This document shows, one piece after another, positions 47,215 to 49,199 of a DNA stretch of 64,000 nt. How positions within the stretch are numbered: the stretch's first letter is position 1; each line of letters begins with the position of its first letter. A program made the translations under genes and the position numbers. Origin of the DNA: Myrmaecium sp. VS I D KN 1 (taxonomy: Eukaryota; Ascomycota; Dothideomycetes; Valsariales; Valsariaceae); assembly GCA_019775845.1 (NCBI GenBank), contig JADQAV010000015.1, positions 1,054,001 to 1,118,000 of the forward strand, written 5' to 3'. Below the pieces are notes generated by a model, which was not told the origin of the DNA, made no database searches, and saw only the letters and a program-made list of their open reading frames with translations.

Positions 47215-47746
47215 TTAACGCACTCTGTGCAGCCTGTTCAACTTCTTCGCTGTGGCGATCTGATGACAATCGTGTTAGCCATGTCTAGCGGTGATGCAAA
47301 CGTCAGCAATATGAGCGGAATGTTCACCTGTGTCCTTGTGTTCTGGCCTCTGACGGGCAAGCCCATGGCATGCCGCTTGCCTCGGTATGTCCCCATATCT
47401 CTTAACCGCCTGATGTTGTCTAGCACTGATCTCCTCAAGTCGTTCTCGATCTTCATCTCGGACATTGTCGCATTTAGGTCAAGGATGGTGGAATTGGCGA
47501 GCTCGCCAACTTTAGCCGCTGGGTTTATATAGAATTTCGCCATAAGACGCTTTGAAACTGCCGGACCGATGCCATAGAAGCTCTCAAGGGCCGCCTGCAG
47601 GATGAGTTCGGTCAACGTCTATTGTGGATGAACTGCGGTAGAGGATTTATACTTTGACAAGCTTCGCTTCCGCGAAAGGAGCGCCGAATATGAAGACCTT
47701 GGCAGTGTCAGTCGCGAAACGAGTACACGAGGTTTGAGCTTACCAT
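47215..47746 (-). CDS. SWS2: Mitochondrial ribosomal protein uS13m (Sws2)
   Basis: Four coding exons (47744-47746, 47653-47697, 47328-47594, 47215-47259) give 119 residues. The first coding exon is only the ATG; splicing GTAAGC...CCAAG places [15 protein letters not shown] next, which is how fungal uS13m proteins begin (MVFI-G). The S13 signature follows: [21 protein letters not shown], then [29 protein letters not shown] and [15 protein letters not shown]. The protein sits in the head of the mitoribosomal small subunit. All exon joins are phase 0. It is divergent from the cyclophilin gene with 269 bp between starts. Confidence 0.9.
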
Positions 47747-48015: not shown

Positions 48016-48905
48016 ATGTTGTCCCTTCAGAGGGTTGTCATTTCGGCGCTCGTCATCCTCACTTTCACCTTCCTCTTCTTTGCCCAAGCTTCGGAGGCAG
48101 CAAAAGGTCCCAAGATCACCAATAAGGTAAGCTGTCATGCGCTTGCCATCTTGTTAGGTTTTTACACTAACTAGTGTGCAGGTCTATTTCGACATCACCC
48201 ATGGCGATGAACCGATCGGACGTATTGTGATGGGCTTATATGGCAAGACTGTGCCTAAGGTACGCGATGGACCATGATGTTTTAGCATTTAACGTGTATT
48301 TGCTAACTATCCTAGACTACCGAGAATTTCAGGTGCGCAAGCTTACCGCCGATTCTGTTGTATATCTCTAATTCAAGATAGGGCTTTGTCTACCGGTGAG
48401 AAAGGATTTGGGTACGAGGGATCTACGTTTCACCGCGTTATCAAGAACTTCATGATCCAAGGGGGCGACTTTACCAAGGGAGACGGTGTGTATACTGAAA
48501 CGGAAAAGTAACTTTTCCATGCAGCTAACGATCGTCAGGAACCGGCGGAAAGTCCATCTATGGCAACAAATTCCCAGATGAGAACTTCAAACTCAAGCAT
48601 AGCAAGAAAGGCTTGCTGAGTAAGTGAATCTTACGCTTAGTGTCGATTGCTGGCTAACAAATAATGCAGGCATGGCCAATGCTGGCAAAGACACCAACGG
48701 AAGCCAGTTTTTCATTACAACTGCCATAACCTCCTGGCTTGATGGCCGCCATGTCGTCTTCGGGGAGGTCCTTGAAGGCTATGACGTGGTAGAAAAGATC
48801 GAGAACGTCCAAAAAGGTCCTAACGATAAGCCTCTTAAGGCCGTCAAGATAGTGAAGAGCGGCGAGCTGGAGGTTCCACCAGAAGGTATCCACATTGAGC
48901 TGTAA
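48016..48905 (+). CDS. cypB: ER cyclophilin B (peptidyl-prolyl isomerase)
   Basis: Six exons (48016-48126, 48182-48259, 48316-48332, 48382-48485, 48539-48619, 48670-48905) give 208 residues; the third is only 17 nt. A signal peptide ([20 protein letters not shown] and on to about residue 26) precedes a full cyclophilin fold with [32 protein letters not shown] (catalytic Arg), [16 protein letters not shown] and [14 protein letters not shown] (the Trp that binds cyclosporin). This form ends GIHIEL, resembling ER-retrieval signals (HDEL, and HEEL reported for Aspergillus niger CypB). It folds proline-containing secretory proteins. A GT donor at 48886 inside the last codons allows a second form with a different tail (48979-49199). 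Confidence 0.9.
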
Positions 48906-48978
48906 ATGCGCAGAAAACCTTCCCCCACTCGGAATCGCTGATTCTTGAATTGATACTTCAAAGATACTTACGGCGCAG

Positions 48979-49199
48979 CTGAGTCTGCTGTCGAAGAAGA
49001 CACCGTAGATAGCACAATTTTGGCCACTACGCCGAAGCAGCCGGCCGAATCTGCAGTATCCACTGGAGAAGGTCTATCGATATCGAAGAAGCTGTTTCTC
49101 TGCGGAACCATCATCGGCGCCTGTGTCTTGTTTTTACGGACCCGGAAGGATTATCAGGGTGTTTACAGGATTGAGGAGAAAGGATCCTCGATGGCATAA
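48979..49199 (+). CDS. cypB: Alternative last exon of cyclophilin B (membrane tail)
   Basis: If the segment 48886-48978 (GTATCC...GCGCAG, 93 nt) is removed, the frame passes from VPPE into A and 72 further codons, giving 275 residues. The new tail is acidic/Ser-Thr-rich (ESAVEEDTVDSTIL), then has a hydrophobic helix (KKLFLCGTIIGACVLFL) followed by RTRKDYQ, and ends GSSMA. An open frame with a lysine-bounded membrane helix, in phase with a canonical splice pair, is unlikely by chance. It would replace the HIEL ending with a C-terminal membrane anchor. Confidence 0.6.

Follow-up and report, generated by a model that had tools for sequence, protein, structure and literature searches.

The cyclophilin B locus and its two reading frames

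The window, the whole 64,000-nucleotide stretch of Myrmaecium sp. VS I D KN 1 DNA that was analysed, carries a cyclophilin B gene (cypB) on the + strand at 48016-49199. Five introns, 49-56 nt long, interrupt it, and a sixth is optional. A complete cyclophilin domain is present (PF00160, 171.6 bits against a cut-off of 21.7, profile positions 1-157 of 159), and the N-terminus, read from the sequence by eye, is hydrophobic and a candidate ER signal. The full-length, best-covered homologues of the gene are fungal (best 120 of 7992 listed), and its core is 88% identical to that of the nearest listed relative (P0046). Upstream, on the minus strand at 47238-47618, lies what we take by eye to be a gene resembling ribosomal protein S13. 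The features of cypB are as follows.

48016-48126, + strand: exon 1, with the start codon, the candidate hydrophobic N-terminal signal and the start of the core (gene model; signal by eye)
48182-48259, + strand: exon 2 (gene model)
48316-48332, + strand: exon 3 (gene model)
48382-48485, + strand: exon 4 (gene model)
48539-48619, + strand: exon 5 (gene model)
48670-48885, + strand: shared part of exon 6, with the end of the cyclophilin domain, ...SGELEVPPE and the first base of the split codon (gene model, domain search)
48885-48905, + strand: GIHIEL-stop, an ER-retrieval-type tag read only with the last intron kept (letters, gene model, relatives)
48886-48887, + strand: donor, G/GTATCC, with C at +5 (intron comparison within the gene)
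48938-48942, + strand: CTGAT, the sole CTRAY branch-like motif of the last intron (motif scan)
48962-48963, + strand: acceptor 1 (CAAAG), giving a 78-nt intron and the tail start DTYGAAESA, compare DLYGAAEPA in relatives such as P0010
48977-48978, + strand: acceptor 2 (GCAG), giving a 93-nt intron and the tail start AESA, 15 nt beyond acceptor 1 and in frame with it
48964-49199, + strand: tail exon, with an acidic linker, a hydrophobic stretch and the short end EEKGSSMA-stop (gene model, profile, hydropathy; a single place in the genome)
49092-49136, + strand: hydrophobic stretch LFLCGTIIGACVLFL between KK and RTRK, a putative membrane helix (hydropathy alone)

With the last intron kept, the gene encodes a 208-residue protein that ends in PPEGIHIEL, with the stop at 48903-48905. 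With it removed, the product has 275-280 residues, one hydrophobic stretch and a short tail. The elements from which the sequence-only reading had built its case are all present: the unspliced ending GIHIEL matches letter for letter, the GT within the Gly codon stands at 48886-48887 and splits that codon in phase 1, and the GCAG said to open a 73-codon frame lies at 48975-48978. Splicing to 48978 gives a 73-residue tail with its stop at 49199 and a protein of 275 residues in total. The tail contains a 17-residue window of mean hydropathy 2.0 with KK before it. Its linker has a net charge of -5; the charges of the 12 residues that follow the hydrophobic window sum to 0, because that window includes the first R and the T of RTRK; the positive flank of this tail therefore rests on the RTRK at the window's edge.

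The tail and its acceptors

Two full-length searches (best 120 of 7992 and best 120 of 7995) gave 222 distinct homologues, and all counts given here describe this listed sample, not all fungi. A retrieval-type tag ends 59 of them, a tail 142, and 21 have neither; by name or C-terminus 19 of these 21 look like other organisms or other cyclophilins, and P0044 and P0045 are cut short. The listed tailed forms come from seven Pezizomycotina classes (Dothideomycetes, Eurotiomycetes, Lecanoromycetes, Leotiomycetes, Sordariomycetes, Candelariomycetes and Sareomycetes), and the named tagged forms from three (Dothideomycetes, Eurotiomycetes and Sordariomycetes). Classes were assigned through seven species, one per class; for three classes the species checked has the tagged form, and the tailed one belongs to a congener (Exophiala, Alternaria, Colletotrichum).

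Nine long models (P0026, P0099, P0121, P0151, P0153, P0157, P0165, P0179 and P0186), all Sordariomycetes by name, join cyclophilin B to a Trm112-like end, with PF03966 listed for eight of them. These ends are probably neighbouring genes fused by annotation, a hint of a conserved neighbourhood there; a tblastn search of the window with the last 130 residues of P0026 (E<=1e-3) found no Trm112 gene. The nine models were excluded from the tail profile and the hydropathy counts (142 reduced to 133, with 132 in the profile).

The sequence-only reading had proposed that the downstream frame encodes a membrane anchor. An alternative is that the tagged form alone matters and that the membrane frame arose by chance or survives as a relic. 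Derkx and Madrid reportedly described in 2001 an Aspergillus niger cyclophilin B (CypB) with an HEEL retention signal, and it is by this signal that the protein is known, which favours the alternative. So does the result for residues 190-275 used alone as a query, for which none of 54 candidates reached E<=0.001; the link between the window tail and its relatives thus runs through full-length matches. Lack of conservation of the frame in relatives was the second of the two refuting conditions set beforehand, and the frame is conserved. A profile of 132 relatives' tails, run against 1287 six-frame segments of the window, matched the window tail frame at E 6.2e-16, with the next best segment at 0.68. 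The same profile scored the window tail at 54.8 bits, against 7.4 bits for the best of 2000 tail shuffles. The window tail is absent from this profile, and the relatives in it were retrieved via the window's own full protein and a Colletotrichum match. A hydrophobic 17-residue window (mean hydropathy of at least 1.6) occurs in 133/133 listed tails tested, and 104 of the 133 end in [EDQ]K[STNM][MLIVFA][AV]. The 12 residues after the hydrophobic window are net positive in 86% of the 133; the linker varies, with a mean charge of -6. Given the profile match and these shared features, a chance or relic frame is very improbable.

The point at which the tail begins differs from that first proposed. 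A second in-frame acceptor, the AG at 48962-48963, lies 15 nt upstream of 48978 and adds DTYGA to the tail, and the score of 54.8 bits is obtained with these residues, against 46.8 bits without them. The tail start from 48963, DTYGAAESAVEEDTVDST, aligns with DLYGAAEPAIPGDELDIT of P0010 and similar proteins; Tyr stands at tail position 3 in 41/140 listed tailed relatives and Gly at position 4 in 93/140. By this comparison acceptor 48963 fits the relatives better than 48978. Tail starts are annotated further down in Alternaria conjuncta (P0009) and Didymella keratinophila (P0008) and longer in their kin P0010 and P0036, so both acceptors may be used. The motif alone favours neither (CAAAG at 48963, GCAG at 48978). 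The A of CTGAT is 22 nt from the acceptor end at 48963 and 37 nt from that at 48978; the distance is 9-12 nt in the other five introns. Acceptor 48978 thus stands as an in-frame site that opens the tail; as the sole acceptor it gives way to 48963, or to the use of both.

One gene or two, and the standing of the tagged form

Tagged and tailed forms stand in the databases as separate entries, as would two paralogous genes, one tagged and one membrane-anchored. Identical cores with different ends were found in three pairs: Alternaria incomplexa P0097 and A. conjuncta P0009 (193/193), P0070 (tag, jgi) and P0039 (tail, merc; 202/202), and P0219 and Lasiosphaeria hispida P0145 (193/193). At least 95% core identity to some tailed form is seen in 19 of the 59 listed tagged forms. 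On a tree of the cores the two forms are intermixed, with 43 changes of form and 21 mixed against 41 same-form cherries. Shuffled labels gave 44-58 changes (mean 51), and the observed 43 falls just below this range, a slight clustering of the forms that leans towards paralogy; two old paralogues would need about one change. Built quickly with FastTree, the tree has 19 starred branches among its 194 inner ones and was used for the mixing of forms alone. The identical cores and the mixing on the core tree indicate that tag and tail are ends of one gene.

The genome agrees with this. Across its 25.66 Mb (66 contigs), searched for gene copies, the cypB exons and the tail find their own locus at 84-99%, except for exon 3, whose shortness prevents a match of its own. 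Among the 20 matches, those to other cyclophilins have 40-70% identity and all stop at or before residue 225, short of the hydrophobic stretch. The tail has one place in its own genome and the tag pattern has one genome match. With a single locus for core and tail, identical cores across forms and 43 changes on the core tree, we reject the two-paralogue idea as extremely improbable.

The reverse of the chance-frame idea is that the membrane form alone functions, that unspliced tagged mRNA is noise and that tagged entries are mis-annotated. According to excerpts of PMC3597508, 92% of alternative splicing in Aspergillus oryzae is intron retention, and unspliced mRNAs are often non-functional. 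The tag borne by the cypB intron has been kept in a way that noise is not: 56 of the 59 listed tagged relatives have a standard-length tag of the form G[IT][HRK][AVM][ED]L, in P0073 an insertion precedes the final GIHVEL, and P0068 and P0085 read GIQLE and then finish in NDKDEL and DKKDEL, respectively. Many entries of either form are predicted genes, and the ending given may be the choice of a single program. Among the listed forms, 27 tagged and 6 tailed ones come solely from sources (jgi, lgn, ena, merc) that look read-assembled, which we take to be transcript assemblies; the longest contigs behind these 33 forms measure 0.9-2.8 kb, given for all except P0039 in a list copied by hand. The 27 tagged forms among them have the whole upstream frame intact. 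None of the five upstream introns in the window is a multiple of three in length, and each would break the frame, so the intact read-assembled proteins probably derive from spliced mRNA in which the last intron alone was kept. The noise explanation is in our estimate highly unlikely, and we judge both isoforms to be real and old. Fungal contigs were also sought among viral records (17 pattern matches, 0 relatives) and among prokaryote genomes (53 loci, all titled prokaryotes or prokaryotic MAGs, which were left unused).

The shared junction and a proposed splice switch

The donor follows the first G of the Gly codon in phase 1, and the junction residue of tailed forms must therefore be GNN-coded (V, A, D, E or G). 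It is so in 140/140 listed tailed forms in register (D 53, G 51, E 22, A 11, V 3), compared with 21% at the position after the junction. Two of the 142 tailed rows are out of register; by eye the junction residue is D in P0150, and a shift is seen in P0038. Among 44 tails under half identical over 12 residues the junction is GNN-coded in 44/44; the eleven positions that follow average 54%. Gene-finding programs placed these introns, so the GNN junction shows agreement on position, not expression. At the same point all 59 listed tagged forms read GI or GT. In those of standard length the G is present in 56/56 and is followed by I in 54 and T in 2.

The donor itself departs from the others of the gene: the +5 base is G in 5/5 other cypB donors and C in the last one. 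Ile follows the split Gly in 57/59 listed tagged relatives, and Ile codons cannot put G at +5; the donor would thus be kept weak by the tag. Excerpts of PMC3925392 state that splice sites are weaker in retained fungal introns. An RNA structure that hides the donor was also considered and was rejected, as the predicted structure at the intron is ordinary (z 0.45).

In the immunoglobulin heavy chain, an upstream poly(A) site and splicing compete, and the outcome decides between a secreted soluble form and a membrane form. As in that gene, the cypB donor lies in the terminal coding exon and splicing swaps a soluble tail for a membrane exon; unlike in that gene, the soluble form carries an ER-retrieval-type tag. 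The same layout, with the donor in the last codons of the terminal coding exon and a membrane exon downstream, would suit a short form produced by cleavage and polyadenylation within the last intron, not by its retention. By eye there is no AATAAA in 48886-48978, another difference from the immunoglobulin gene, and the intron has just 78-93 nt. Fungal poly(A) signals are loose. On balance we consider intronic polyadenylation unlikely.

Our preferred reading, to which we assign a probability of about three in four, is that one ER cyclophilin B gene has two forms, a soluble tagged one (intron kept) and a type I membrane-anchored one (intron removed). Much of the splice switch of the sequence-only reading survives in it: one gene has two possible C-termini, a retrieval-type tag or a membrane-type tail, set by one intron, and the acceptor is amended. 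With the last intron kept, translation would stop within the intron after GIHIEL and yield an isomerase that is soluble in the lumen and bears a retrieval tag of the KDEL type. Since no later intron is seen, the tagged mRNA would have no exon junction past the stop to mark it for decay. With the intron removed, at 48963 or 48978, the acidic linker, a single membrane helix and a short tail would take the tag's place, and the putative N-terminal signal, lumenal domain and basic flank suggest a type I membrane-anchored isomerase. The donor would be written into the tag: split Gly and Ile make G/GTATH, where Ile bars a +5 G and would leave the intron easy to keep, and the weak donor may set the ratio of the two forms. 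Both mRNAs would be made in Myrmaecium sp. VS I D KN 1, with lumenal and membrane localisation of their products, respectively. A broader proposal is more tentative, and we put it at somewhat less than an even chance: across leotiomyceta, the ER-retrieval tag would overlie a weak 5' splice site (G/GTATH), and splicing efficiency, since before the classes parted and perhaps by ER load, would have set the shares found in the lumen and in the membrane (either close to the translocon or at a later point of the secretory pathway).

The closest fungal parallel is PTC7 of the Saccharomycetaceae, where excerpts of PMC3597508 place the spliced form in mitochondria and the intron-kept form in the nuclear envelope. 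In PTC7, likewise a fungal gene, retention or removal of one intron yields two working proteins at separate sites; the arrangement is conserved across species, and one of the proteins has a membrane helix. For cypB this is proposed, the two frames being read from the sequence. The helix of PTC7, near the N-terminus, is encoded by the retained intron, which contains no stop; in cypB, by contrast, the retained intron carries a tag and stop for the C-terminus, and the helix would be gained by splicing. Gene, compartment and lineage also differ. The same excerpts describe splicing that gives two working proteins as much rarer in fungi than in animals, say that their authors knew of no such S. cerevisiae gene besides PTC7, and mention a few other fungal genes that send one protein to several locations by alternative splicing.

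Among cyclophilins, the fungal ER cyclophilin B proteins (A. niger CypB; Group G of Pemberton 2006, PMC1618848, in excerpt) resemble the Myrmaecium protein in their cyclophilin domain, in a signal peptide (a candidate one in Myrmaecium) and, when it is unspliced, in the HEEL-like end; the excerpted text mentions neither a membrane form nor a second C-terminus for Group G. S. cerevisiae Cpr4, as described there, is also an ER cyclophilin with a putative transmembrane domain, but it belongs to the separate Group H of Saccharomycotina only and is not an alternative end of a cyclophilin B gene. A search of full-text literature, with most subscription journals outside its scope, found no description of a two-ended cyclophilin B. 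If the proposed switch is real, it would be a case that spans several filamentous-fungal classes, acts on an ER foldase and has tag and splice site on the same bases. It would also permit a direct test of whether membrane placement of an ER isomerase matters. The role of human cyclophilin B, it has been proposed, is defined by where an N-terminal membrane anchor localises it (PMC13084196, in excerpt). Users of the databases should also be aware that the two different C-termini found there probably belong to a single gene.

The tag itself varies within limits. Third from its end stands A, V or M in the 56 standard-length tags and I in the window (48894-48896), never an acidic residue, unlike in HDEL. 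HIEL is thus not canonical, with a hydrophobic residue (A, V, M or I) at that position, and appears to fit the KDEL-type family loosely. The two proteins with a canonical KDEL, P0068 and P0085 (one of them from Paraphaeosphaeria minitans), look as if a weaker H-x-E-L tag had been upgraded, and their ends suggest selection for ER retrieval.
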